A stretch of DNA of 64,000 nt, from positions 337,594-401,593 of the forward strand of contig JAWAID010000002.1 of assembly GCA_038888615.1 (NCBI GenBank), in the 5' to 3' direction. Position 1 is the stretch's first letter. Each line of letters starts with the position of its first letter. Origin of the DNA: Candidatus Korarchaeum sp. (GTDB lineage Archaea; Korarchaeota; Korarchaeia; Korarchaeales; Korarchaeaceae). Below, piece by piece: positions 30,741 to 51,774 of the stretch. The notes below the pieces were generated by a model. That model saw only the letters and a program-made list of their open reading frames with translations. It searched no databases and was not told where the DNA came from. Made by a program: the position numbers and the translations under genes.

Positions 30741-31775
30741 CTAGGGGCTTCGAAGCGAGTCTACGAGTCCCCTCCAGAACTCGTACTCCTGCTTCGCCCT
30801 TGGAAGCTCTGACCTCGAGGTTAGGTAGGAGTCCCAGCGCTCAGCGTACCTCAGGAGCTCCGAGTCGCCCGACCAACTCCCGAGGAAGTAGAGTAGCCTT
30901 ATGTGCAGCCTATGGTAATCTTCGGTAGCTCTCCCATGCTTGGGGGAGTAAAGGGACCAGTTGTTCCTCTCGTAGTATGGGAGTATCCTCCTCAGGGTCT
31001 CCAGTCCCTCGCTCAAAGCTTTCCTGCTCACCTCGTCCCCGATCAAGCCATCGTATATGGCTAGGCCCTTCAGCGAGAGCATGAACCCGTTGAGCACCAG
31101 GTCATCGGGCGCGTTCGAGTACTCCAAGTAGAAGGGTCCGTAAGCTGTCTCCAACACGAAACCCCCGTCCTCATGGCGTATCAGGAAGCTGTTGACTAGG
31201 GATTTAGCCGCCTCATAGTACCTAGCGTCATTGAACTTCCTGTAAGCGATGGCGTAATAGCCAGCCGCTATCCCCTGACTGAAGGAGGAGTTCCAGGGTA
31301 TCGAGGCCCTCTCCCAAGCGAAGTAGAAGTTGAAGAAGGAGGCATTTCCCTTCCACTCCAAGTAACGGAGCATCCAATCCATTATGCGCTTGAACTCTTC
31401 CCAGTTCCTTCTGTAGAAGAGGGACTCCGTAGCGAGGTTCATGGCGTTTATAGCGTGCACGTTGAACCCCTGCTTAGTTATGTAAACCAGGGGGACCTGA
31501 ACACCCTCCGGAGCGAACCTCTCGAATAGCTCAGGTTTCCTGCAGAGCCTCATGTACTCCAGATCGGCCTTCAGGGAATCTAAGAGTTGCTTCATAGCAG
31601 CATCGCTCCCTCTCACTTTCTCGAACCTCCTCAAGGTGTTCTCGATATCGCTCATCAGGAGATCGCACCTCTCAGCTGAAGTCGAGCTCCCGCTGGAGGT
31701 ACCATCACTCAAGAGGTGTAGCGTTACCGCGACCGCTACTATGGAGAGGGAAATCAGGAGGAGCCTGCGTCCCAT
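30741..31775 (-). CDS. D-glucuronyl C5-epimerase C-terminal domain-like protein
   Basis: A 344-residue protein with one N-terminal membrane anchor or uncleaved signal (LLLISLSIVAVAVTLHLL), so the catalytic domain faces outside. From about residue 105 the alpha/alpha-toroid pattern of the heparosan glucuronyl C5-epimerase C-terminal domain is clear: FNVHAINAMNL, SFSQGIAAGYYAIAYR, GGFVLETAYGPFYLEY, VLNGFMLSLKGLAIY and a final DYHRLHIRLLY. It may epimerise or bind uronic acids of a surface polysaccharide. ATG 31775 is chosen because the TATA box TTTTTATT (31797-31804, minus) predicts start at this ATG; the frame stays open to 31811. Confidence 0.72.
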   Translation of the reverse strand: MGRRLLLISLSIVAVAVTLHLLSDGTSSGSSTSAERCDLLMSDIENTLRRFEKVRGSDAAMKQLLDSLKADLEYMRLCRKPELFERFAPEGVQVPLVYITKQGFNVHAINAMNLATESLFYRRNWEEFKRIMDWMLRYLEWKGNASFFNFYFAWERASIPWNSSFSQGIAAGYYAIAYRKFNDARYYEAAKSLVNSFLIRHEDGGFVLETAYGPFYLEYSNAPDDLVLNGFMLSLKGLAIYDGLIGDEVSRKALSEGLETLRRILPYYERNNWSLYSPKHGRATEDYHRLHIRLLYFLGSWSGDSELLRYAERWDSYLTSRSELPRAKQEYEFWRGLVDSLRSP

Positions 31776-31796
31776 CGCGCCCCGGTCCCGCTCCTG

Positions 31797-31852
31797 AATA
31801 AAAAGGGCCATCGCGGAACACTTATAAACTAGTACACTGAATATACCAGTAT
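31797..31852. promoter_or_regulatory. Divergent promoters and dyad operator candidate
   Basis: For the leftward epimerase-like gene, a TATA box lies at 31797-31804. For the rightward winged-helix gene, CTTATAAAC at 31821-31829 is about 25 nt upstream of ATG 31853. A dyad TACACTG (31833-31839) and CAGTATA (31847-31853), with a 7-nt spacer, covers the expected start site of the winged-helix gene and could be its own operator. Confidence 0.45.
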
Positions 31853-41111: not shown

Positions 41112-41330
41112 GTTACCATTCTGTATCTTTTTTGATTAAAGATTCTAATGAACAGTTCTACCTCGCCCCTGCTCTAGCCTGACTCGCGTCCATCCCGTGA
41201 AAAATTTATAGATAGGTTCACGGATCATTATGTCAATAATTTTTAGTTTATTGTTTTTACTTTTCTGCCAATGACCCCCATTTAGGGTAAAGTTTATAAG
41301 TAAAGACACGCTTGGGGAAGGGGTCTATCC
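41112..41330 (+). promoter_or_regulatory. Promoter region of the amino acid ABC operon
   Basis: An AT-rich gap with no gene. GTTTATAAG at 41291-41299 lies about 30-38 nt upstream of ATG 41331 and is the best TATA box; a second TATA-like run (AATTTATAG) is near 41204-41212. GGGGAAGGGG precedes the ATG as a possible ribosome site. Confidence 0.45.
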
Positions 41331-42674
41331 ATGGCCCTGAGTAAGGGAGCCCTTTTGGGAATCCTGATCCTCGTGATAGTGGTCATAGTGGGAGCTGCTC
41401 TCCTCATGATACCACCCGCACCGACCCCAACGACCACGCCGACAGCGACGACCCCAGCGGTCACCACGCCAACCGTAACCACACCGGCGGTATCCGAGGT
41501 GAAGATAGGGGTCGTGCTGCCCCTATCCGGAAGGCATGCTGAAACGGGAGCCGATCTCAAGAGAGGGGTTGAGTTCGCTCTCGAGAAGATAAACGCCGCT
41601 GGAGGCATAAAGAACCTGGGGGGTGCTAAGCTGGTCGTAGTCTGGGGCGATAGCGCTGGCGATTCCGCTACAGGCGCTGCCGAAGCAGAGAGGCTCATCA
41701 AGGAGGAGAAGGTCGTGGCTCTGATGGGAGCTTACCAAAGCTCCGTTACCAAGACGGCTAGCGAGGTGGCTGAGTCCTACAAGGTGCCGTTCCTGAATCC
41801 GGACTCTACTTCACCTGTCCTGACCGAGAGAGGATATACATGGTTCTTCAGGACCACAGCTCACGATGGAACTTTTGCGGAGCAGCACGTTGAATTCATA
41901 AACTACCTGAACAGCACCTACGGGGGTCTGAAGACTGTAGCGATAATAAACGAGGACACCGAGTGGGGTGCATCTACAGCTAAAGTTTGGAAGGAGCTCT
42001 TCTCAGCAGCTGGCTATAGGATAGTGGCTGAAGTCAGCTATCATGCGGCTACGGTGACCTCACTTGACAGCGAGGTCGAGAGGTTGAAGGCCGCTAATCC
42101 CGATGTCTTACTCATCGCCGCTTATGCCAATGACGGGATACTCTTAGTCAGGACGATGAAAGCCAAGAACTTCGCTCCAAAGGTTGCGCTGGCACAGGAC
42201 GCCGGTTTCATAGATCCAGCTTACGTCCAGCAGATAGGGAAGGACGGCTACTACTTCATGAGCAGGGAGGTCTTCAACTGGGATCTCCTCGAGAAGATAC
42301 CCGAACTGAAGAAGGTGAACGATGAGTACCGCGCGAAGTACGGGGTGAACCTCAACGGGAACTCAGCTAGGGACTACACAGGAGTTTGGGTGCTCTACTG
42401 GGCCATAGAGGAGGCTGCGAAGGTAGCAAGCCCCACCGACCTGGAGGCGTTCAGGAAGGCCATACGCGATGCTCTAGCTAAGATGGACGTACCTCCTGAG
42501 AGGATAATAATGCCCTGGGGTGGGATAAAGTTCGATAGCAAGGGGCAGAACATCCTAGCTAGAGGGATAGTGGTCCAGATGAGCCCCACTGACGGCAAGT
42601 ACCACACAGTTTACCCGAGGGAAGTTGCCACGGTGGACATAATATTCCCGTTCCCGTCCTGGGAGAAGAGGTAA
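41331..42674 (+). CDS. livK: Branched-chain amino acid-type ABC transporter substrate-binding protein
   Basis: A 447-residue extracellular binding protein. Residues 8-29 are a membrane anchor or signal (ILILVIVVIVGAALLM), followed by a Thr/Pro-rich linker (about 30-52) probably O-glycosylated, and then the periplasmic-binding-protein fold starting KIGVVLPLSGRHAETG. SVTKTASEVAESYKVPFLNPDS is a typical family segment. It captures an amino acid or amide and delivers it to the permeases encoded directly downstream. The name livK is by position; the exact substrate (branched-chain amino acid, D-amino acid or amide) is unknown. Confidence 0.88.
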   Translation: MALSKGALLGILILVIVVIVGAALLMIPPAPTPTTTPTATTPAVTTPTVTTPAVSEVKIGVVLPLSGRHAETGADLKRGVEFALEKINAAGGIKNLGGAKLVVVWGDSAGDSATGAAEAERLIKEEKVVALMGAYQSSVTKTASEVAESYKVPFLNPDSTSPVLTERGYTWFFRTTAHDGTFAEQHVEFINYLNSTYGGLKTVAIINEDTEWGASTAKVWKELFSAAGYRIVAEVSYHAATVTSLDSEVERLKAANPDVLLIAAYANDGILLVRTMKAKNFAPKVALAQDAGFIDPAYVQQIGKDGYYFMSREVFNWDLLEKIPELKKVNDEYRAKYGVNLNGNSARDYTGVWVLYWAIEEAAKVASPTDLEAFRKAIRDALAKMDVPPERIIMPWGGIKFDSKGQNILARGIVVQMSPTDGKYHTVYPREVATVDIIFPFPSWEKR

Positions 42675-42723
42675 AATTTTCACAATATCTTCATTTTTTG
42701 TAAAGAAGCTGGGGTGATTTCTC

Positions 42724-43590
42724 ATGGTGGACCTGAACTCACTCATCGGAGCGGTTGTCTCCGGCCTCATGATAGGAAGCATATACGCCCTCATAGCCGT
42801 AGGTCTCGCCCTTATCTGGGGGGTGATGAACGTCATAAACTTCGCTCAAGCCGATTACATGGCCTTAGGTGCTTTCCTAGGCTTCGTCATCCTGGAAGCT
42901 TTAGGAGTAGACCCCCTGATATCGCTATCTCTCATATTCGCGACGGTCTTCCTGGTCGGGATCCTCACTCAAGTAGTGGCTATAGAGCCCGTCCTCGAAG
43001 CTCCCGTCCTGAGCCAGATAACGGTCACGTTCTCCCTGCTCCTCATCATAAGGTACGGCTTGGAGGTGGTCATGGGCCCCTACACCAGGATAGTCGAGGT
43101 GCCTTATAGGGACATGTTCATAAGGGTTGGGGGTGTGTCCTTCTCGCTACCTCAGCTCATAGCCTTAATCGTCTCACTCGCAGTGGCTTTCGCCCTCTAC
43201 TTGTTCATGAGCAGGACCTTCCTGGGGGCAGCTCTTAGGGCTACCGCTCAAGATATGCTCGCAGCGCAACTGCACGGGATAAACATAAAGCAGATGTACA
43301 GGCTCGCCTTCGGCATAGGAGTGGGTATATCAGCCATAGGAGGCGTCCTCCTCTCGCTCTTCTACCCGATCTACCCCGAGATGGGGGCCTTCTTCACCAT
43401 GATAGCCTTCATATGCGTCGTCCTGGGTGGTTTCGGGAGCATATTCGGGGCCTACTTAGGGGGCATCATCATAGGGCTGCTCGAGACCGTCAGCGCACTG
43501 TTCATCTCCCCCTCCCTAAAGACGCTAGCTGCATTCATCGTCTTCATCCTCATAATCCTGTTCAAGCCCAAGGGTCTCTTCGGGAGATGA
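42724..43590 (+). CDS. livH: Branched-chain amino acid-type ABC permease LivH
   Basis: A 288-residue membrane permease with about eight helices. Family features are LIGAVVSGLMIGSIYALIAVGLALIWGVMNVINFAQ at the N-terminus and ATAQDMLAAQLHGINIK near residue 175, the EAA-like loop that contacts the ATPase, then VVLGGFGSIFGAYLGGIIIG. It forms the transmembrane pathway with LivM, encoded 4 nt downstream. ATG 42724 follows GGGGTGATTTCTC. Confidence 0.92.
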   Translation: MVDLNSLIGAVVSGLMIGSIYALIAVGLALIWGVMNVINFAQADYMALGAFLGFVILEALGVDPLISLSLIFATVFLVGILTQVVAIEPVLEAPVLSQITVTFSLLLIIRYGLEVVMGPYTRIVEVPYRDMFIRVGGVSFSLPQLIALIVSLAVAFALYLFMSRTFLGAALRATAQDMLAAQLHGINIKQMYRLAFGIGVGISAIGGVLLSLFYPIYPEMGAFFTMIAFICVVLGGFGSIFGAYLGGIIIGLLETVSALFISPSLKTLAAFIVFILIILFKPKGLFGR

Positions 43591-43594
43591 GATC

Positions 43595-44584
43595 ATGAAG
43601 CTGAGCAGAGCTTTGGTGTACTCCGTCTTGATCGCCCTACTGTTACTGCTTCCGGCCGTCTTCATGGTGCTAGATCTGGGATTCGCCGCAGCTGCGCTTT
43701 ACTTCTGCGTTCAGTACTCGATAATGGCCATGGCTTGGAACTTCCTAGCAGGATACGCGGGTCAGGTGAGCTTCGGACATGCCGTCTTCTTCGGGGTGGG
43801 GGCTTACACCACGATGATACTCCTCCTCTTCTACGAGGTCACCCCCTGGGTGGGGATACCAATAGGTGGCGTCATGGCAGCTCTCCTAGGCTTAGGGTTG
43901 AGCTTCCTCTTCAGGTTGAGGAGCCACTGGTTCTCACTGGCTACTCTAGCTTTAGTAACCATATTCCTCCTTCTCTTCCAGGAGTTCGCTCCAGGAAGGG
44001 CTGCTGGGCTTCAAGTCCCCATAGTACCGCCTGAGAAGGAGTTCTACTACCTGAGGTACGCCGGAGCTTACTACTACATCTACCTCGCCCTGGCCTACCT
44101 CGGGGTGGAGGTGCTCCTGATGAACTACTTGGTCAAGAGGGACGTGGGCTACTATCTACAGGCCATAAGGGAGGACGAGGAGACCGCCATGTCCCTGGGC
44201 ATTAACCCCTTCAAGTACAAGGTATTGGCTATGCTCGTCAGCTCGTTCTTCATGGGGATCGCTGGAGGCCTATACACCGTCAGGTTCAGGTTCGTCGACC
44301 CCTACTGCGTCTTCGACATACTTCTGATATCCATATACCCGGTCATAGCCTCCCTGCTGGGTGGGATGTACACCTTCTGGGGGCCCGTCGTCGGTTCGTT
44401 CGTCTTCGTGCCGATATTCGAGTACGTCAGATCTAACATAGTCACGGCTTTCCCGAGGTACTTCGGTCTTCACTTCCTCGTAGCGGGCATAATACTCTTC
44501 CTCATATCCCTGAGGGTGCCTCGAGGCATAGTGGGTTGGCTCGAGGCCAAGGGATACGTTAGGCGTCCCAGGTACGGGGGGTGA
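43595..44584 (+). CDS. livM: Branched-chain amino acid-type ABC permease LivM
   Basis: A 329-residue permease with about nine helices and the LivM pattern AMAWNFLAGYAGQVSFGHAVFFGVGAY (about 47-73) and AIREDEETAMSLGINPFKYK (about 190-209), the cytoplasmic coupling loop. It pairs with LivH. ATG 43595 follows the LivH stop after 4 nt, with GGGAGATGAGATC as ribosome site, and its stop overlaps the LivG start (GTGA). Confidence 0.92.
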   Translation: MKLSRALVYSVLIALLLLLPAVFMVLDLGFAAAALYFCVQYSIMAMAWNFLAGYAGQVSFGHAVFFGVGAYTTMILLLFYEVTPWVGIPIGGVMAALLGLGLSFLFRLRSHWFSLATLALVTIFLLLFQEFAPGRAAGLQVPIVPPEKEFYYLRYAGAYYYIYLALAYLGVEVLLMNYLVKRDVGYYLQAIREDEETAMSLGINPFKYKVLAMLVSSFFMGIAGGLYTVRFRFVDPYCVFDILLISIYPVIASLLGGMYTFWGPVVGSFVFVPIFEYVRSNIVTAFPRYFGLHFLVAGIILFLISLRVPRGIVGWLEAKGYVRRPRYGG

Positions 44585-45303
44585 GCGTCTTGCTGAAGGT
44601 CGAGGGGGTCACTAAGAGGTTCGGGGGCTTGGTCGCCTTAAGGGAGGTGAGCATGGAGGTCAAGGAGGGTGAGATAGTCGGTCTCATAGGCCCCAACGGT
44701 GCTGGCAAGACCACCCTCCTCAACGTGATAACGGGTTTCCTCAAGCCCGAGGCGGGTAGGGTCCTCTTCGAGGGAAGGGACATAACGGGGTGGCCTCCCT
44801 ATAGGATAACCTCACTGGGCGTAGCTAGGACTTTCCAGATAGTCAAGCCCCTCTCGAACTTAACGGTGTTTGAGAACGTCCTCACGGGAGCATTCATGAG
44901 GCATAGGCAGAGGGAGGAGGCCTTGGAGAGATCTAAGGGAGCTCTGGAAATCGTAGGATTATCTGGAAAGTCCGACCTATTAGCTGGTTCGTTGAATGTT
45001 GTTGAGAAGAAGAGGCTGGAGTTAGCGAGGGCCCTGGTCCTCGAGCCCAAGCTCCTGCTGCTGGACGAGGTAGCTTCCGGCCTGAACCCGGTGGAGATAG
45101 AAGACATGATCTCGCTCCTCAAGGAGCTCAACGCTAAGGGGGTGACGATGGTGGTCATAGAGCATGTAATGAAGTTCATAATGGGTTTGGTCGATAGACT
45201 GGTGGTCCTCCATTACGGTGAGAAGATCGCTGATGGCCCTAAGGAGGAGGTGGCCAACGACCCCAAGGTGATAGAGGCCTACCTGGGTGGTGTCAAGGCT
45301 TAG
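44581..45303 (+). CDS. livG: Branched-chain amino acid-type ABC ATPase LivG
   Basis: A 240-residue ATP-binding subunit. Walker A GPNGAGKTT (about 37-45), Walker B LLLLDEVASGL (about 155-165), H-loop VIEHVM and the family-specific C-terminal HYGEKIADG...YLG are all visible. The ABC signature, usually LSxGQ or LPYG in this family, is unusual: the helix before Walker B reads LNVVEKKRLELARAL with no glycine. GTG 44581 overlaps the LivM stop. It energises the LivHM permease together with LivF. Confidence 0.9.
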   Translation: MSVLLKVEGVTKRFGGLVALREVSMEVKEGEIVGLIGPNGAGKTTLLNVITGFLKPEAGRVLFEGRDITGWPPYRITSLGVARTFQIVKPLSNLTVFENVLTGAFMRHRQREEALERSKGALEIVGLSGKSDLLAGSLNVVEKKRLELARALVLEPKLLLLDEVASGLNPVEIEDMISLLKELNAKGVTMVVIEHVMKFIMGLVDRLVVLHYGEKIADGPKEEVANDPKVIEAYLGGVKA

Positions 45304-45312
45304 GGTGATATC

Positions 45313-46023
45313 ATGGCGCTCCTAGATGTTAGGGACCTTGAGGTCGCTTATGGGGAGACCCAGGTGCTCTGGGGAGTATCCCTGAGCGTTGAAGAGGGGG
45401 AGATAACGTGCCTAGTGGGAAGCAACGGCGCTGGCAAGACAACCACGCTCAGGGCTATCTCAGGCGTAGTGCCCCTGAGAGCTGGATCCATCTCCTTCGC
45501 TGGTGAGGAGATAACTCGCATGGAACCCCACAAGAGGGTAGAGCTGGGGATAGCCCACATACCCGAAGGAAGGAGGCTCTTCCCCGATATGAAGGTGATA
45601 GAGAACCTCAAGGCTGCAGCTTACACTAGGAAGGCTAGGGAGAAGTATCACGATTCCCTCGAGTTCGTCTTTAACCTCTTCCCAAGGCTGAAGGAGAGGA
45701 AGGACCAGCTGGCCAGGACGCTGAGCGGTGGAGAGCAACAGATGCTAGCAATAGCTAGGGGCTTGATGCTGAGACCTAAGGTGCTGATGATAGATGAGAT
45801 GAGCTTGGGCTTAGCTCCCAAGGTCGTGGTAGAGCTCTTCAGACTCATAAGGGATCTGAAGGACCAGGGATATACAGTGCTCTTGGTCGAGCAGAACGTG
45901 AGGCAAGCCCTACTCTTCAGCGATAGGGCTTACGTCCTGGAGACGGGGAGGATCGTGAAATCCGGCAGAAGCAGAGAGCTCATCGAGGATCCTGACGTGA
46001 AGAGGGCTTATCTTGGCCTCTGA
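45313..46023 (+). CDS. livF: Branched-chain amino acid-type ABC ATPase LivF
   Basis: A 236-residue ATP-binding subunit. Walker A GSNGAGKTT (about 36-44), signature LSGGEQQMLAIARGL (about 137-151), Walker B VLMIDEMSLGL and H/Q-loop LVEQNVRQAL complete the site. ATG 45313 follows the ribosome site GGTGATATC. It is the last gene of the importer operon; a T-run directly behind the stop may end the transcript. Confidence 0.93.
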   Translation: MALLDVRDLEVAYGETQVLWGVSLSVEEGEITCLVGSNGAGKTTTLRAISGVVPLRAGSISFAGEEITRMEPHKRVELGIAHIPEGRRLFPDMKVIENLKAAAYTRKAREKYHDSLEFVFNLFPRLKERKDQLARTLSGGEQQMLAIARGLMLRPKVLMIDEMSLGLAPKVVVELFRLIRDLKDQGYTVLLVEQNVRQALLFSDRAYVLETGRIVKSGRSRELIEDPDVKRAYLGL

Positions 46024-46031
46024 TCTTTTTT
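46022..46031 (+). terminator. T-run terminator after livF
   Basis: A T6 tract follows the livF stop codon directly, and a new TATA-like element (AAATTTATTAG, about 46039-46048) starts the next gene, so the operon probably ends here. Confidence 0.4.
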
Positions 46032-46072
46032 CACTGAAAATTTATTAGGGGAAGTCCGCGGAGCATGAGGTG

Positions 46073-46774
46073 ATGGTCTTGAGGTTGGGCATCCTGATCC
46101 CCTCCTCAAACACGACGATGGAGGTGGAGTTCAGGGAGATGCTACCCAAGGACTTCTCGGTGCACGCCGCAAGGATGAGGCTGAGGGAGGTCACGGTAGA
46201 GGGTCTGGAGGAGATGGAGAGGGAAGCTGAGTACGAGGCCCTTAAGCTGAGGGACGCCGGTGTTGATGTGATAGGCTACGGATGTACGAGCGGGAGCTTG
46301 ATAAAGGGGCCGGGGCATGATGAGGAGCTGGAGAGGAGGATAGAGGAGGTCTCGGGAAGGCCAGCTGTGGCCACATCAGGCGCCGTCCTCAGGGCACTGA
46401 GGGCGTTGAACGCGAGAAGGGTAGCCGTTGCCACGCCCTACATAGATGAGATAAACGAGAGGGAGGTATACTTCTTGGAGAGGAACGGCTTCGAAGTCGT
46501 GGATCTGAAGGCTCTGAGGCTCAGGGACAACCTGGAGATAGGTAAGGTGAGCGCGGAGAGGTTGATATCCCTGGTGGAGGGACTCGATAGGAGCAGGGCT
46601 GACTGCGTTTTCATAAGCTGCACGAACCTACCGACCATCGGGGCCATAGATTATCTGGAGAGGAGACTCGGTAAACCCGTCTTCTCCAGCAACACAGCGA
46701 CCCTCTGGGCCATGCTCAGGAGAGCCGGATCTGATATCAGGATCGATGGATACGGCAGGTTGTTGTTAATCTAA
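46073..46774 (+). CDS. Maleate isomerase / Asp-Glu racemase superfamily protein
   Basis: A 233-residue enzyme. The two catalytic cysteines are seen in YGCTSGS (about residue 75) and ISCTNLPT (about 185), and the N-terminus LGILIPSSNTTMEVEF is typical of maleate cis-trans isomerases and arylmalonate decarboxylases, related to Asp/Glu racemases. The reaction is an isomerisation or racemisation through a Cys pair; the substrate is not clear. ATG 46073 is 25-30 nt behind a TATA-like run; GTG 46070 and TTG 46079 are alternatives. It sits between an amino acid importer and amino-acid-type dehydrogenase. Confidence 0.82.
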   Translation: MVLRLGILIPSSNTTMEVEFREMLPKDFSVHAARMRLREVTVEGLEEMEREAEYEALKLRDAGVDVIGYGCTSGSLIKGPGHDEELERRIEEVSGRPAVATSGAVLRALRALNARRVAVATPYIDEINEREVYFLERNGFEVVDLKALRLRDNLEIGKVSAERLISLVEGLDRSRADCVFISCTNLPTIGAIDYLERRLGKPVFSSNTATLWAMLRRAGSDIRIDGYGRLLLI

Positions 46775-46801
46775 ATTTGTGTAAATCTTTTTTACATAAA
46801 C

Positions 46802-46838
46802 TTTTTTAAATTCCCCCCCGGAGGGGGACGGTGTTGCC
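46802..46838 (+). promoter_or_regulatory. Promoter with GC palindrome
   Basis: TATA-like TTTTTTAAAT at 46802-46811 predicts start near 46832, 7 nt before ATG 46839. Between them, at about 46812-46828, TCCCCC and GGGGGA face each other across a short spacer. This could be a regulator site overlapping the promoter or, if transcription starts earlier, a hairpin. Confidence 0.4.
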
Positions 46839-47867
46839 ATGAGCGAGGTAAGGGTCGTCATGGTGGGCCTGGGCCCGATAGGGCAAGCCATAGCGAAGGG
46901 CATACTGAAGAAGAGGGGATTCTCCATAGTGGGGGCCGTCGACGTAGCTCCTGAGCTCGTGGGAAAGGACCTGGGTGAGGTGCTCGGATTAGATAGGAAG
47001 CTCGGGGTTACCGTGGTACCTGACCTGGACAAGCTGTTGGATGAGGTGAGAGCCGATGTGGCGGTGATAGCGACGAAATCCTACCTCCCTGACGTCTACC
47101 CGCAGATAGAGGCTTGTGTGAAGCACTGCGTCAACGTCGTCTCCACGTGCGAGGAGCTCTCCTACCCCTACTACAGGTACCCGGAGCTATCCGCTAGGAT
47201 AGATTCCCTGGCTAAGCAGTACGGGGTCACCGTGCTGGGGACCGGGATCAACCCAGGGTACCTGATGGACGCCCTACCGATAATGCTCACGGGAGCCTGC
47301 ACTGAGGTCGAGAGCGTGAGGGTGATAAGGATGATGGACTCCAAGAAGAGGAGGATACCCTATCAGAGGAAGATAGGCACGGGCCTCTCCCCTGAGGAGT
47401 TCAGGAGGATGATAGAGGAGAAGAAGATAACGGGGCACGTAGGCCTGACCGAGTCAATAGCCATGATAGCAGCTGCTCTAGGCTGGAAGCTTGATGAGAT
47501 AAAGGAGTTCCCACCCGAGCCCGTGATCGCTGACAGGGAAGTCACCACCACTTACACCACGGTTAAGCCTGGGCAGGTCGCGGGCCTGAAGAGCATAGCT
47601 CACGGAATCAAGGACGGTAAGCCCGTCATAATCCTGGAGTTCATATCCCACGCGCTGGTGGAGGAGGAGCACGATACCGTAATAATAGAGGGCACACCTA
47701 GGATCGAGGAGAAGAAGATAGGAGGCGTTCACGGTGATATAGGGACCGTAGCCGTAGTGATAAACATGATACCTAAGGTGATAAAGGCCGCTCCTGGTTT
47801 AGTGACGATGAAGGACCTGCCCATCCCATCGGCCGTAGTCGAGGACGTTAGGGTCTACCTCGCCTGA
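46839..47867 (+). CDS. 2,4-diaminopentanoate dehydrogenase-like protein
   Basis: A 342-residue NAD(P)-dependent dehydrogenase. The N-terminal Rossmann domain has GLGPIGQAIAKG (about 10-21) and IATKSYL; the second domain carries STCEELSYPYY, LGTGINPGYLMDALP (about 130-144) and a long C-terminal part with HGIKDGKPVIILEFISHALVEEEHD. This resembles 2,4-diaminopentanoate dehydrogenase of clostridial ornithine fermentation and dihydrodipicolinate-reductase-like enzymes. The natural substrate here is uncertain; the neighbouring racemase-type genes make an amino acid or imine likely. Confidence 0.8.
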   Translation: MSEVRVVMVGLGPIGQAIAKGILKKRGFSIVGAVDVAPELVGKDLGEVLGLDRKLGVTVVPDLDKLLDEVRADVAVIATKSYLPDVYPQIEACVKHCVNVVSTCEELSYPYYRYPELSARIDSLAKQYGVTVLGTGINPGYLMDALPIMLTGACTEVESVRVIRMMDSKKRRIPYQRKIGTGLSPEEFRRMIEEKKITGHVGLTESIAMIAAALGWKLDEIKEFPPEPVIADREVTTTYTTVKPGQVAGLKSIAHGIKDGKPVIILEFISHALVEEEHDTVIIEGTPRIEEKKIGGVHGDIGTVAVVINMIPKVIKAAPGLVTMKDLPIPSAVVEDVRVYLA

Positions 47868-48839
47868 TCACCTCCCTATGAACCCTTCTAGCATTTTTAT
47901 CATCGCTACGTGAACCTTCATAGGTAGCTTGTCCACAGAGAGCTCGTTCTTCCCAGTAACTCCATCCACAGCCCCAGCCTCAACTACGGCCCTCAACATG
48001 AGCTCCTCCTCCTCAGGAGTGTGCAAGGCCTCCCTCCTCCCTGTGAGCAGGGTTAATGCCGCTGAGAGCCCATATCCTCCCCAGTTGCTCACAGCTGAAC
48101 AGATAAGCGCATCAACCTTCGAAGATGCTGCTATAAGCTTACCGTTGGGGACTTGGTCCTCTACTGCCTTCCTTATGTTCCCCATGCCCACCTCGTTTCC
48201 CCCGTCCCCTATTCCCACCGTTAGGATCCCTGAGCTCACTGCCCTCTCGAAGAGGGGCTCTACCTTCATGTGGAGGTCAGTGACGTCGAAGCCCCTCATC
48301 GTGTAGTACCTGCCATCGGCTGCCCTACCGACTTTCTCTATCGCGAGCACCATAGAGGGACCCAGCTCCGATATCAACTCACCGGCCTCCGCGTCGGCTT
48401 CCACGAGATCGTAGGGAAAGCTCCTCAGTAGGAAAGAGTTCTGCGAGCTCAAGAGCTCCTCGTAACTTCCGGCCTCCCTCATCCCCAACGAGGAGAGGGC
48501 TGCCCTCATCACGTGCGCGGATTCCCTCTCTATCATGACGATGGGCCTCGCTCCAAGAGCCTCACTCAGGGCCCTGGCGATGGAAGCCGCTCCCAATGGC
48601 CCGTCAGTCTCCTGAACCCGGCTGGGGAGGACCCTGAACCCCGTGACCACCACTACCCTATCCCCCTTACTCACCCCGCTGATTATCCTCTCAGCCGCGT
48701 CGAGCACCAGGGGTTTGTTAGTGAGTCCCCTGGCGGCGTCGTAGAGCCCGTATATAACACCCCTGCCGCTCATATCGACTGTTATCAGTCTGTCTATGCC
48801 CTCGCATATGTGCTCAGGGCTCGAGCTCATACGCTCCAT
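47868..48839 (-). CDS. D-glutamate cyclase-like protein (DUF4392)
   Basis: A 323-residue protein of the D-glutamate cyclase C-terminal family. Visible signatures are VVVVTGFRV, ETDGPLGAASIARALSEAL (about 75-95) and VGIGDGGNEVGMGNIR (about 230-245). In eukaryotes the related enzyme turns D-glutamate into 5-oxo-D-proline. ATG 48839 is chosen because AGTTATATTT (48851-48860, minus) lies about 25 nt upstream; ATG 48830 is nearly as good and the frame is open to 48884. It is convergent with the dehydrogenase gene, with their stops touching. Confidence 0.78.
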   Translation of the reverse strand: MERMSSSPEHICEGIDRLITVDMSGRGVIYGLYDAARGLTNKPLVLDAAERIISGVSKGDRVVVVTGFRVLPSRVQETDGPLGAASIARALSEALGARPIVMIERESAHVMRAALSSLGMREAGSYEELLSSQNSFLLRSFPYDLVEADAEAGELISELGPSMVLAIEKVGRAADGRYYTMRGFDVTDLHMKVEPLFERAVSSGILTVGIGDGGNEVGMGNIRKAVEDQVPNGKLIAASSKVDALICSAVSNWGGYGLSAALTLLTGRREALHTPEEEELMLRAVVEAGAVDGVTGKNELSVDKLPMKVHVAMIKMLEGFIGR

Positions 48840-48897
48840 CGATCTGGGGAAAATATAACTCTTCTTGCAAAGATCTTGACGCATCTATTCAATAAGC

Positions 48898-49560
48898 TCA
48901 AATCCTTACCACTTCGTAGGAGTAGCCCATCGTCCTCCCGAGGACGGGATCCGTTAGCGAGAAGCTGTACCTCCTTCCGAACCTCAAGGTACCGTCTATC
49001 CAACTTACGGATCCTGAGAAGATGATAGCGTTAACATCAGCGATCCCGGAGAGATGGAGTAGTTCCTCAGGTGGGAGGAGTGAGGATAACTTAGCCTCCT
49101 GAGATGGGACCCCATCTACGGACATCCTGAGTATCAGGTCATCCCAATGATCCCTAACTTCCTCGTACCTCCAGACGAGAGGAGGGATCACCTTAGGGTA
49201 GAGCTGCTTCGAGAGGTGGACGCTGAGCCTCTCGACCTCCCTATCCGTGTGATCGCTACCCACTGTGACGTACTTCGGCTCCCCTCTCTCCACCAGAAGC
49301 ACGTACTCGACCTCACCACTCGTCCCATCCCCTATCACCTGCACGCGGACGCTCGAGTCCAGTAGGTTGCAGCTGACGGGGAAGAACGAGGGTACCCTCT
49401 CGGGTTCAGCTACACCCAGTTTCTTGAGCTCCTCTATGTGAGCTAGGACATCCTCCCTTTTCCTGCCGGTCCATCCACCGAGTAGGAGCTTATCGAACTC
49501 GAATGAGATCGGGAGGACATCCCCCTCTCGGGAGCATAGGAGCAGCTCGATCCTCCTCAC
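48898..49560 (-). CDS. DUF2848 family protein
   Basis: A 220-residue protein with clear DUF2848 features: LLLGGWTGRKREDVLAHIEEL, FFPVSCNLL, GDGTSGEVEYVLL, YVTVGSDHTDREVE and SKQLYPKVIPPLVW. The fold is related to fumarylacetoacetate-hydrolase-like proteins and the function is unknown; DUF2848 genes are often near organic-acid and amino-acid catabolism. GTG 49560 starts the gene and a TATA-like CGTTATAAG lies about 25 nt upstream on the minus strand. Confidence 0.85.
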   Translation of the reverse strand: MRRIELLLCSREGDVLPISFEFDKLLLGGWTGRKREDVLAHIEELKKLGVAEPERVPSFFPVSCNLLDSSVRVQVIGDGTSGEVEYVLLVERGEPKYVTVGSDHTDREVERLSVHLSKQLYPKVIPPLVWRYEEVRDHWDDLILRMSVDGVPSQEAKLSSLLPPEELLHLSGIADVNAIIFSGSVSWIDGTLRFGRRYSFSLTDPVLGRTMGYSYEVVRI

Positions 49561-49617
49561 AAGCCGCCTAACTGCGTTAACTTATAACGTTATGCTTTCC
49601 ATCGAACGGGGAGCGCT
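49561..49617. promoter_or_regulatory. Shared divergent promoter of DUF2848 and LarA-type genes
   Basis: The 57-nt gap holds ACTTATAACGTTATGC at about 49580-49595. It offers a TATA box in both directions: CTTATAAC rightward toward ATG 49618 and CGTTATAAG leftward toward GTG 49560, so the two genes probably share control. Confidence 0.5.
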
Positions 49618-50847
49618 ATGAGGGTGAGTGTCCTTTACGGAAGCGAGAGGATCTGGTTCGAGCTGCCGGACGATAGGTACATCGGCTCCTTCAGCGTCAA
49701 GGAGCCCGGGGGGATCGACGAGGCGACCGTAGTAGAGCGTTCATTGGAGAATCCAATAGGGCCTAAGCTTGAGGATCTCGATGCTAGGAAAGTGCTCATC
49801 TCCGTTAACGATGCAACAAGGTTAATACCTACCCCTAGGCTGCTTGATCACATCTTAAGACGCGTCAGAGCTGAGCTCAGGATAATGGTGGCAACGGGCT
49901 CCCACAGGGCGCCGACGGAGGAGGAGTACAGGGACTCGATACTAGGGCATCACTACGACTCGCTCAGGAGGATGACCGTAGCTCATGATGCTAAGAGGAG
50001 CGACTTCGTCGATCTAGGTACTACCAGCAGAGGCACACCCATACTGGTGAATAGGGAGTTATTTGAGCACGACTTGGTGATCACTCTGAGCTCCGTTGAG
50101 CCTCACTACTTCGCCGGTTACAGTGGGGGGAGGAAGATGATAGCTCCCGGACTCTGCATGTACGAGACGATCGAGAGGAATCACAAGCTAGCCCTGCTCC
50201 CTGAGGCAGCCTTGGGGAAGCTTGAAGGAAACCCCGTGCACGAGGACCTGGAGGAGATAGCCAAAGCTGTGGCTAAAGAAGTCAGGATCTTCTCGGTCAA
50301 TACGGCGATAAGCGGTGAGGGTCGCGTGTGGGCAGCCGAGTCCGGTGACCTCTTCGATTCCTTCTACGCCATAATAAGGAGGGTTGAGGAGAACTACTCA
50401 GTGAGCTTACCGGAGGAACCTGAGGTCGTAGTAGCGGTTGCGCCAAAGCAGATGGGGATAGACCTCTATCAAGCTCAGAAGGCCATCGAGGCGGCTAAGC
50501 TGGTCACGAGGAAGGGGGGCGTAATAATACTTGTAGCGCCCTGTTGGGACGGCATAGGCCCTAGGAACTTCTACGACCTGCTCACGAGCGGCCCTATTGA
50601 GGAGGTGAGGAGGAAGATCTGGGAAGGGTATAAGCTGGGTTACCATAAGGCTGCTAAGCTCATAGAAGCCCTGGAGAACTACAGGATACTAGCTGTCACG
50701 GGCCTGGAAGATGATGTGCTCAGGAGGATAGGGATAGAGCCCTTCAGGAGCGTTCAGGAAGCGGTGGATGAGGCCCTCTCCTCGGTGAAGGGAGGCGTTG
50801 CTGTACTACCCGAAGCCAGTGTGTGCGTACCTAGGGTCTCCAGATGA
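49618..50847 (+). CDS. LarA-type nickel-dependent lactate racemase family protein
   Basis: A 409-residue enzyme. H96 (ATGSHRAP), H163 and K173 (EPHYFAGYSGGRKM) and H189 (ERNHKLA) have the same spacing as H108, H174, K184 and H200 of the Lactobacillus plantarum lactate racemase; there the Lys binds the nickel-pincer nucleotide and the second and last His act around nickel. NDATR near residue 66 also fits. The family racemises or epimerises 2-hydroxyacids. The cofactor-making genes larB, larC and larE are not in the window. Substrate is uncertain; lactate or another hydroxy acid. Confidence 0.85.
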   Translation: MRVSVLYGSERIWFELPDDRYIGSFSVKEPGGIDEATVVERSLENPIGPKLEDLDARKVLISVNDATRLIPTPRLLDHILRRVRAELRIMVATGSHRAPTEEEYRDSILGHHYDSLRRMTVAHDAKRSDFVDLGTTSRGTPILVNRELFEHDLVITLSSVEPHYFAGYSGGRKMIAPGLCMYETIERNHKLALLPEAALGKLEGNPVHEDLEEIAKAVAKEVRIFSVNTAISGEGRVWAAESGDLFDSFYAIIRRVEENYSVSLPEEPEVVVAVAPKQMGIDLYQAQKAIEAAKLVTRKGGVIILVAPCWDGIGPRNFYDLLTSGPIEEVRRKIWEGYKLGYHKAAKLIEALENYRILAVTGLEDDVLRRIGIEPFRSVQEAVDEALSSVKGGVAVLPEASVCVPRVSR

Positions 50848-50850
50848 GGG

Positions 50851-51774
50851 CTAGTGAGCGAGCGAGGGCGTGAGGAAGTGGAGCCAGATGTTGAGGTAGA
50901 TAGGGGCTGCTAAGGATGAGATTGTGATGAACTGAGGTATTACATCCCTTTGGAAATCGTACGCATTACTGAAGACGCCTAGGAGCACTGCCGCCGGCAT
51001 GGCGCTCATCAGTACGAGTACGCTCAACTCCATAGGGCTGAGACCGACCAGCGAGCCCAGTAGTAGGGAGATCGCGGGGGAGAGGAACGCCCTCAGGGCC
51101 AGCAGTACCCCCTGCTTCGGGAGGGAGGTGGATGCTGAGGCGGATAGAGACGCTCCTACCGAGATCAGAGCTAGTGGTGATGCCGTATTCCCTAAGGACT
51201 CCAGGACTGAAGCTAGTTGGCTCGGGATCCTGAGGCCAGTTAGGTTCATGAGCACCCCAACCGCTAACGACGCTACTAAGGGGTTCCTCAGGGTCCCGAT
51301 GAACGCCCCCCCTGGTGAGCCTCTCGCCCTCAAGCTCTCGAGTAGGAGGATGCAGAGGAGTGATGAGATCACGAAGGTAACCATCCAGAGTATTACTGAA
51401 AGCTGAAGGGCCTTTGGTTCATTGAAAGTGATGCTTATGAATGGTATCCCGAAGAACCCCGTGTTACCGAAGTTGGTCGCTAGGATCATGAGGTACACCT
51501 CGCTCCTCTCCCTCCTCATCACCCTCCCAGCTAGGTAGATCAGGGAGGACAGCGTGGCCATCGAGAGGAGGCAAACCGTGAGTGTCCTCAATAGCATCCA
51601 ATCTAAGCTCAATTCCATCAGGCTTCTCAGCACTAAACTAGGCATCGCTACGTAAATCACGTAATTCGATAGTGTTCCGTCGTTTTCCCTAATTAATTTA
51701 GCTTTCTTGAGAGCGTATCCTATCCCCAGCATTATCACTAGGTAAGGCGTCGTCCCGAGGAAGATCCGTTCCAC
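50851..51774 (-). CDS. AEC family permease
   Basis: A 307-residue permease of the auxin-efflux-carrier type with about ten helices in two halves. Family segments include LSNYVIYVAMPSLVLRSL (about 35-52), LATNFGNTGFFGIPF (about 99-113) and VLMSAMPAAVLLGVFSNAYD (about 262-281). Bacterial relatives carry malate, malonate or lactate-like organic acids, so linkage to the convergent LarA-type gene fits hydroxy-acid transport. The start is GTG 51774; no strong ribosome site is seen. Stops of the two genes are 3 nt apart. Confidence 0.85.
   Translation of the reverse strand: MERIFLGTTPYLVIMLGIGYALKKAKLIRENDGTLSNYVIYVAMPSLVLRSLMELSLDWMLLRTLTVCLLSMATLSSLIYLAGRVMRRERSEVYLMILATNFGNTGFFGIPFISITFNEPKALQLSVILWMVTFVISSLLCILLLESLRARGSPGGAFIGTLRNPLVASLAVGVLMNLTGLRIPSQLASVLESLGNTASPLALISVGASLSASASTSLPKQGVLLALRAFLSPAISLLLGSLVGLSPMELSVLVLMSAMPAAVLLGVFSNAYDFQRDVIPQFITISSLAAPIYLNIWLHFLTPSLAH

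Follow-up and report, generated by a model that had tools for sequence, protein, structure and literature searches.

A putative lactam uptake and opening module and a separable nickel-pincer racemase unit in a Candidatus Korarchaeum genome

Gene content and layout of the cluster

Candidatus Korarchaeum sp. (GCA_038888615.1, here denoted G000) is a heat-loving archaeon with a 1.67-Mb genome assembled in two contigs and 99.85% complete. Within a stretch of 64,000 nucleotides (contig JAWAID010000002.1, positions 337,594 to 401,593; the window), positions 41331 to 51774 hold eleven genes for an ABC importer, several enzymes of stereochemistry or amino acid metabolism, a LarA-type racemase and a permease, which an earlier note had taken for one island for uptake and interconversion of D/L acids. 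We find that these genes constitute two separable units, of which the first may take up and open a small lactam or cyclic amide. All eleven open reading frames are open at the following positions, and every family assignment of the earlier note agrees with Pfam.

41331..42674, plus strand: HAAT/branched-chain-type substrate-binding protein (SBP); Peripla_BP_6 4.9e-54
42724..43590, plus strand: importer permease 1 (LivH-like); BPD_transp_2 3.8e-34
43595..44584, plus strand: importer permease 2 (LivM-like); UrtC/LivM models 2.5e-22/4e-22, under cut-offs
44581..45303, plus strand: importer ATPase 1 (LivG-like); ABC_tran, BCA_ABC_TP_C
45313..46023, plus strand: importer ATPase 2 (LivF-like); LivF 7.4e-67, under cut-off
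46070..46774, plus strand: two-cysteine (two-Cys) protein of the Asp/Glu-racemase superfamily, AMDase/EutA/maleate-isomerase branch; Amdase 2.8e-47
46839..47867, plus strand: Ord-like NAD(P)-dependent amine dehydrogenase; DAP_DH_C 3.8e-50
47868..48884, minus strand: D-glutamate-cyclase-like (DUF4392/GLUCM_C) protein, called GLUCM here; GLUCM-like_C 6.4e-87
48898..49560, minus strand: DUF2848 protein, weakly FAH-like; DUF2848 1.8e-55
49582..49587, no strand assigned: TATA-like hexamer TTATAA, its own reverse complement, within the 57 bp that separate the divergently transcribed DUF2848 and LarA genes; seen in a pattern scan of both strands
49618..50847, plus strand: LarA-type nickel-pincer racemase; Lar_N 2.2e-44
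50851..51774, minus strand: AEC/Mem_trans permease; Mem_trans 8.4e-27

To judge from its sequence, the importer is of the branched-chain/HAAT type: its SBP is closest among solved structures to 8wch, annotated as 'probable Leu/Ile/Val-binding protein' (3.3e-84), for which a literature search found no paper, and the ABC_tran match in the importer reaches 4.1e-29. The NCBIfam scores of the enzymes all lie under the curated equivalog cut-offs, and the assignments therefore hold at the level of the family and not of the exact substrate. Seven genes, from the SBP through the two permeases, the two ATPases and the two-Cys protein to Ord, run on the plus strand behind a TATA-like box found by pattern scan (TTTATAAGTAA at 41293). 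DUF2848 and GLUCM form a minus-strand pair whose end touches Ord, LarA is transcribed away from DUF2848, and the AEC gene ends against LarA. This arrangement indicates several transcription units, not one operon, and the TTATAA hexamer is a weak candidate for a promoter shared by DUF2848 and LarA.

Separation into two units

Is the cluster one functional island? Comparison within the genus provides good evidence that the eleven genes are two separable units instead: unit 1 (41331-49560) with the importer, the two-Cys protein, Ord, GLUCM and DUF2848, and unit 2 (49618-51774) with LarA and the AEC permease. In one relative (G012) all eleven genes and an upstream rhomboid-like gene are collinear with the window (labels of flanking genes, such as rhomboid-like and aldo-keto reductase, are readings of the sequence or placeholders, given with no family search). 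A short contig of G005 retains the end of Ord, GLUCM, DUF2848, LarA and part of the AEC gene. The closed genome G010, in contrast to G012, has a deletion of 8.3 kb, so that the order is rhomboid-like gene, LarA, AEC, with a stub of DUF2848 left behind. Bases 1-174 of its rhomboid-LarA junction correspond to the sequence upstream of the SBP in G012 (79%) and bases 167-301 to G012 from about codon 27 of DUF2848 towards LarA (94.8%), eight bases being common to both matches; the region upstream of the SBP is thus fused to the first ~27 codons of DUF2848. Since pS, the synonymous divergence, between the LarA genes of G010 and G012 is only 0.08, the loss of unit 1 in G010 is recent.

A further junction is found in G011, where contig C96 passes from about codon 5 of the SBP to about codon 81 of DUF2848, followed by LarA and AEC. 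Eight genes of unit 1 have apparently been lost as a block twice, with different end points and with LarA-AEC staying; AEC adjoins LarA in G010, G011, G012 and G005. Another contig of G011 (C28) carries the rhomboid-like gene and an undeleted importer up to the contig end, and GLUCM and Ord had no match in G011. Bases 1-89 of the C96 junction (L070), comprising the SBP promoter and first codons, are identical to C28 (L186 7422-7510), and G011 is either two strains co-assembled or one genome with both forms, a chimaeric contig being conceivable as well. Identical 89 bases with two continuations, one with the module kept and one with it deleted, could represent a live deletion polymorphism.

A single pathway for all eleven genes, as proposed in the earlier note, was rejected, as G010 and one form of G011 retain LarA-AEC without unit 1, and LarA lies near GLUCM at none of the 80 loci described below. 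What stands of the proposed cluster of uptake and stereochemistry genes is the collinearity of the eleven genes in G012 and a wider distribution of the importer with the two-Cys gene; in other relatives the eleven are apart, and gene order, which the note had named as a check, is accordingly scattered in most relatives and not in all. Recent transfer of the importer was rejected as well: between the window and G012, pS is 0.63-0.73 for all genes and matches the flanks. Identity to G012 is 89-92% for SBP, permease PermC and Ord and 61-65% for GLUCM and DUF2848, a difference that, given the similar pS, reflects constraint and not transfer.

The importer and two-Cys core

Orthologs of the SBP (65-75% identity) were found in eight sister genomes (G001, G002, G004, G006, G008, G009, G014, G015), and in all eight the two-Cys gene follows the importer, the link being given in G004 and G015 by ATPase 2 plus the two-Cys gene on another contig. 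The importer/two-Cys block is also present in G025, which belongs to another family, there with the end of HyuB at the contig edge. The importer and the two-Cys protein are on this basis the conserved core. Ord and GLUCM had no match in any of the eight sister genomes, and LarA and DUF2848, where present, are located elsewhere. A HyuB gene lies at most ~6 kb from the SBP in seven of the eight, contig ends obscuring the region in G006; Pfam detects HyuA and HyuB on G001 and HyuA on G002. In G001, G002, G004, G008, G009, G014 and G015 the block consists of an orthologous importer (~55-75% identity) and two-Cys protein (51-55%) in the same order as in the window, but has HyuA/HyuB where the window has Ord, GLUCM and DUF2848. 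The best curated match of these HyuA/HyuB proteins is to the caprolactamase subunits, at 473 and 287 bits with a cut-off of 1000. The window genome itself contains two HyuAB sets, both beside dipeptide-type transporters and away from the window (HyuB at G000:C2:188654 and C2:739748). In G014 (C64, L232 9530-20000) an Asp/Glu/hydantoin racemase, an M24/creatinase-like peptidase, HyuA, HyuB and a HAAT importer stand in a row, which is likely a hydantoin or lactam operon.

Two cysteines together with an asparagine, a tyrosine and a second asparagine are the functional residues of maleate isomerase. The window protein has the complete set (N14, C72, Y124, N154, C184), as do the six other archaeal homologs in an alignment of nine sequences; a homolog from a UbiD cluster (L075) lacks the second asparagine. 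The closest solved relatives are likewise maleate isomerases (2xec 7.9e-43, 4fq7 2.1e-40). Arylmalonate decarboxylase has Gly74 and a single catalytic Cys188 (PMC4996985; papers are cited here by PMC number); the window protein differs from it in having Cys at both positions (C72 and C184) and scores 155 of 225 bits. With the model for the ectoine-utilisation protein EutA (TIGR02990) it reaches 137 bits, below the cut-off of 318.

GLUCM, its neighbourhoods and the remaining enzymes of unit 1

GLUCM keeps the full set of six acidic metal ligands (E92, D94, E183, D227, E231, D307), and its solved relative is TON_0340 (4dwz, 6.3e-40). The proteins of G005 and G012 start near the internal Met19 of the window protein. 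Neighbourhoods were counted at the loci of the best 80 of 568 relatives from one scan, a sample of near relatives and not of the whole family. Genes of 5-oxoprolinases are frequent there, with DUF1445 at 25, PxpB at 28, PxpA at 21 and any of them at 30 of the 80 loci. Both HAAT permeases occur at nine loci, seven of which also have PxpB or DUF1445. LarA and AEC are found at 0/80 loci from other genomes. As a control, 13 window proteins encoded outside the cluster were counted at these loci too: the aldo-keto reductase occurs at 3/80 and each of the other 12 at 0/80. Clostridial 5-oxoprolinase clusters (L104, L118, L132, L141, L151, L153) comprise a HAAT importer, DUF4392, PxpB, DUF1445 and PxpA; they share with the window the HAAT-type importer clustered with GLUCM/DUF4392, whereas the window has no adjoining Pxp or DUF1445 gene and additionally contains the two-Cys, Ord-like and DUF2848 proteins.

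A neighbour of the AMDase branch is found at 7/80 loci (L080, L082, L085, L086, L091, L095, L137), and a plasmid search added a further such locus in Salipiger; L075 is on the same plasmid as L095. Six of these (L082, L085, L086, L091, L095, L137) are UbiD-UbiX clusters, in which GLUCM stands beside the AMDase-branch protein as in the window, but with a UbiD/UbiX decarboxylase and a different transporter. The cluster of UbiD, DUF4392, a racemase-like protein, ABC genes and UbiX is conserved in alphaproteobacteria, one betaproteobacterium and one clostridial metagenome-assembled genome. No common partner was seen among the annotated genes of haloarchaeal, bathyarchaeal and Desulfurococcales GLUCM loci (L087, L092, L098).

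The Ord-like protein scores 336 bits with the model for 2,4-diaminopentanoate dehydrogenase (NF040740), below the curated cut-off of 400, and has 7xdu as solved relative (2.7e-80). A 64%-identical gene in G017 has nothing pathway-like among its neighbours. In G026 and G027 (L192 7748-10263, L193 7291-9831) an Ord homolog of 63-64% identity is divergent from a LarA homolog with Cys replacing the second catalytic His; at L192 the pair stands beside AFOR, POR-like and aminotransferase genes. The DUF2848 protein seems weakly FAH-like: FAA_hydrolase matches it below the gathering cut-off (E 0.0024, 18.0 of 23.9 bits) and matches three of six homologs, at best with 7.4e-4, and the comparison with HpcE (1wzo) gave E 0.075. 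A structure model from the single sequence was unusable (pLDDT 37.7), and a literature search on DUF2848 found no paper.

Proposed function of unit 1

What could such a combination of proteins do? We favor, at a probability of roughly 40%, that unit 1 is a module which takes up and opens a small 5-oxoproline- or hydantoin-like lactam or cyclic amide, with unit 2 being separate. There is fair evidence for a lactam-type substrate, a class inferred from the recurrent gene partners; 5-oxoproline itself is a guess. Briefly, the HAAT importer would carry the ring compound into the cell, and the two-Cys enzyme might invert the stereocenter of this compound or of the opened product. The GLUCM metalloenzyme would open the ring without ATP, where seven of the eight sister genomes have an ATP-dependent hydrolase of the HyuA/HyuB type; the Ord-like dehydrogenase could then deaminate the product, leaving an oxo acid for the FAH-like DUF2848 protein to process, if the steps follow each other in this order and each enzyme works in this direction. 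A mammalian protein with a DUF4392 domain converts D-Glu into 5-oxo-D-Pro (PMC5339696). Moreover, pyroglutamate arises spontaneously in hot acid, and Sulfolobus acidocaldarius grows on it (PMC6507225). The enzyme families are ordinary and the combination is new. A HAAT importer with a two-Cys protein and DUF4392, in modules that otherwise have HyuAB, suggests ATP-free lactam opening, and the module gives testable functions for DUF4392, for DUF2848 and for the two-Cys branch of the racemases.

Several observations weigh against this proposal. Pfam finds no oxoprolinase subunit (PxpABC/HyuAB) among the module genes of the window. The replacement of HyuAB by GLUCM is a correlation in one clade, and G012, which has the full module, had no HyuB match. 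Caprolactamase is inactive on 5-oxoproline (PMC6061476) and therefore a HyuAB-like protein does not imply 5-oxoproline as substrate. TON_0340, the Thermococcus homolog of GLUCM, has been described as a weak Mn phosphatase (PMC5132392). Outside the genus, Ord is found at one of the 80 GLUCM loci (Ignisphaera), and DUF2848 at none; DUF2848 is also placed elsewhere in the sister genomes. The steps assigned to the Ord-like and DUF2848 proteins are guesses, fitted to the lactam proposal and not predicted by it. Furthermore, two-Cys homologs of 47-50% identity are present in 7/7 examined genomes of another family (f10), apart from any such importer, and the two-Cys protein may therefore have a more general job. 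The annotated genes around two of these loci (L281, L284) encode an ADP-dependent sugar kinase, a nitroreductase, ThiI, an integrase, an M24 peptidase and a protein with metallo-beta-lactamase fold, and the f10 neighborhoods argue against the two-Cys family acting on lactams alone. A nitroreductase gene adjoins the two-Cys gene in two distant archaeal families (L281 8236-9649; L288 5224-6568, in G017).

Alternatively, the two-Cys protein could isomerize maleate to fumarate, which would yield malate to be racemized by LarA, the importer carrying a C4 acid or its amide. The maleate isomerases as best solved relatives, the residue set kept in the window and six archaeal homologs, and the H-K malate-racemase signature of LarA (PMC11770544) are all consistent with such a maleate/dicarboxylate route. 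Yet LarA-AEC separates from unit 1, and the partners of the two-Cys core are HyuAB or GLUCM, not C4-acid genes. HAAT importers are moreover atypical for C4 acids, which counts against the route as well, and we regard it as rather unlikely. Slightly less probable still is an ordinary uptake of branched-chain or diamino acids, in which the SBP would bind leucine-type or diamino acids and Ord would deaminate a co-imported 2,4-diamino acid. Such a function would fit the LIV-type importer and the closeness of Ord to 2,4-diaminopentanoate dehydrogenase, but none of the eight sister genomes with the core has Ord, and no ornithine-fermentation genes were seen beside Ord, a genome-wide search not having been made.

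The pathway of the earlier note, in which D-amino acids from peptidoglycan debris or racemized peptides feed one route of D/L amino and hydroxy acids, is very improbable. All families are related to stereochemistry, and D-Glu is a possible substrate of a GLUCM protein (PMC5339696). However, the genes fall into two separable units, and no support for such a source was obtained, the partners in relatives being lactam and hydantoin enzymes (HyuA/HyuB, PxpABC/DUF1445), which point to lactams or cyclic amides. In addition, the window genes that were annotated, a part of all genes in the window, include no D-amino-acid oxidase, D-amino-acid dehydrogenase or peptidoglycan hydrolase.

LarA-AEC and the missing cofactor genes

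Unit 2 probably consists of a malate-type 2-hydroxy-dicarboxylate racemase and an organic-acid permease. The closest solved relative of the window LarA is Mar2 (6d6z, 3.2e-57). By spacing and alignment with Mar2, its H96 and H163 correspond to the catalytic H108 and H174 of LarA1, and R68, K173 and H189 to R75, K184 and H200, which bind the nickel-pincer nucleotide (NPN; PMC11770544). The 20 other LarAs of the genus that were aligned with the window LarA conserve all of these residues too. The specificity positions read Y, F, H, K, and the last two (H343, K344) match the malate-racemase signature, H/Q and K at the positions of W358 and T359 in LarA1 (PMC11770544). The window LarA thus has the fold family, the catalytic and NPN residues and the H-K signature of Mar2/LarAH6, but it scores 314 of 500 bits with the NCBIfam model for the LarAH6 malate racemase, below cut-off, and its genome is without recognizable larBCE. 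In a second LarA of the same genome (G000:C1:225442) the specificity positions read H, V, A, N, and this protein is possibly a tetronate C2-epimerase; its gene follows those of a D-threonate-kinase-like protein and a PdxA-family protein (L011 7404-10693 = G000:C1:223403-226692).

The earlier note had proposed to look for larBCE elsewhere in the genome, and none of the three was found: there was no match for LarB, no candidate for LarC and no LarE over cut-off (best 38 bits). The same models exceed their cut-offs within the genus, LarC in 7/16 genomes, LarB in 6/16 and LarE in 9/16. G011 (96% complete) is a further case of two LarAs with no LarB, LarC or LarE over cut-off, and G005 (63% complete) and G013 (70%) fit this pattern as incomplete genomes; G002, G003 and G004 lack LarA and likewise give no match over cut-off for the other three. 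The larBCE neighborhood of G010 and G012 is collinear in G000 without the lar genes, and an assembly gap hiding them at the usual site was rejected, since the flank (SBPx, permease, ATPase, UbiD, UbiA) is intact and collinear; a gap elsewhere in this two-contig genome is not excluded. The ratio of nonsynonymous to synonymous change (dN/dS) for both LarA paralogs is 0.06-0.10 among G000, G005 and G011 and 0.10-0.13 in comparisons with the larBCE-bearing G010 and G012, rough values, as most pairs approach saturation at synonymous sites. Such low ratios indicate that the LarA genes are constrained by purifying selection.

How could these racemases obtain their cofactor? Tentatively, and with a real chance of being right, both LarAs may be working nickel-pincer racemases in a lineage that lost the known cofactor pathway and either takes up NPN from neighbors like a vitamin or makes it by a route not yet known; two LarA paralogs under purifying selection without larBCE are the footprint expected in that case. 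The opposite situation, larBCE without larA, occurs in ~15% of genomes (PMC11796402). No statement on LarA without larBCE was found in the accessible parts of the literature searched (including PMC11770544, PMC7583248, PMC9283937 and PMC11796402), which is no proof of absence. Two intact and constrained LarAs without larBCE make it testable whether organisms share NPN or a second way of making it exists, and this cofactor gap is the part of most interest to the specialist.

Apart from the cluster, the window encodes at 30741-31811 an archaeal protein with a D-glucuronyl C5-epimerase C-terminal domain.

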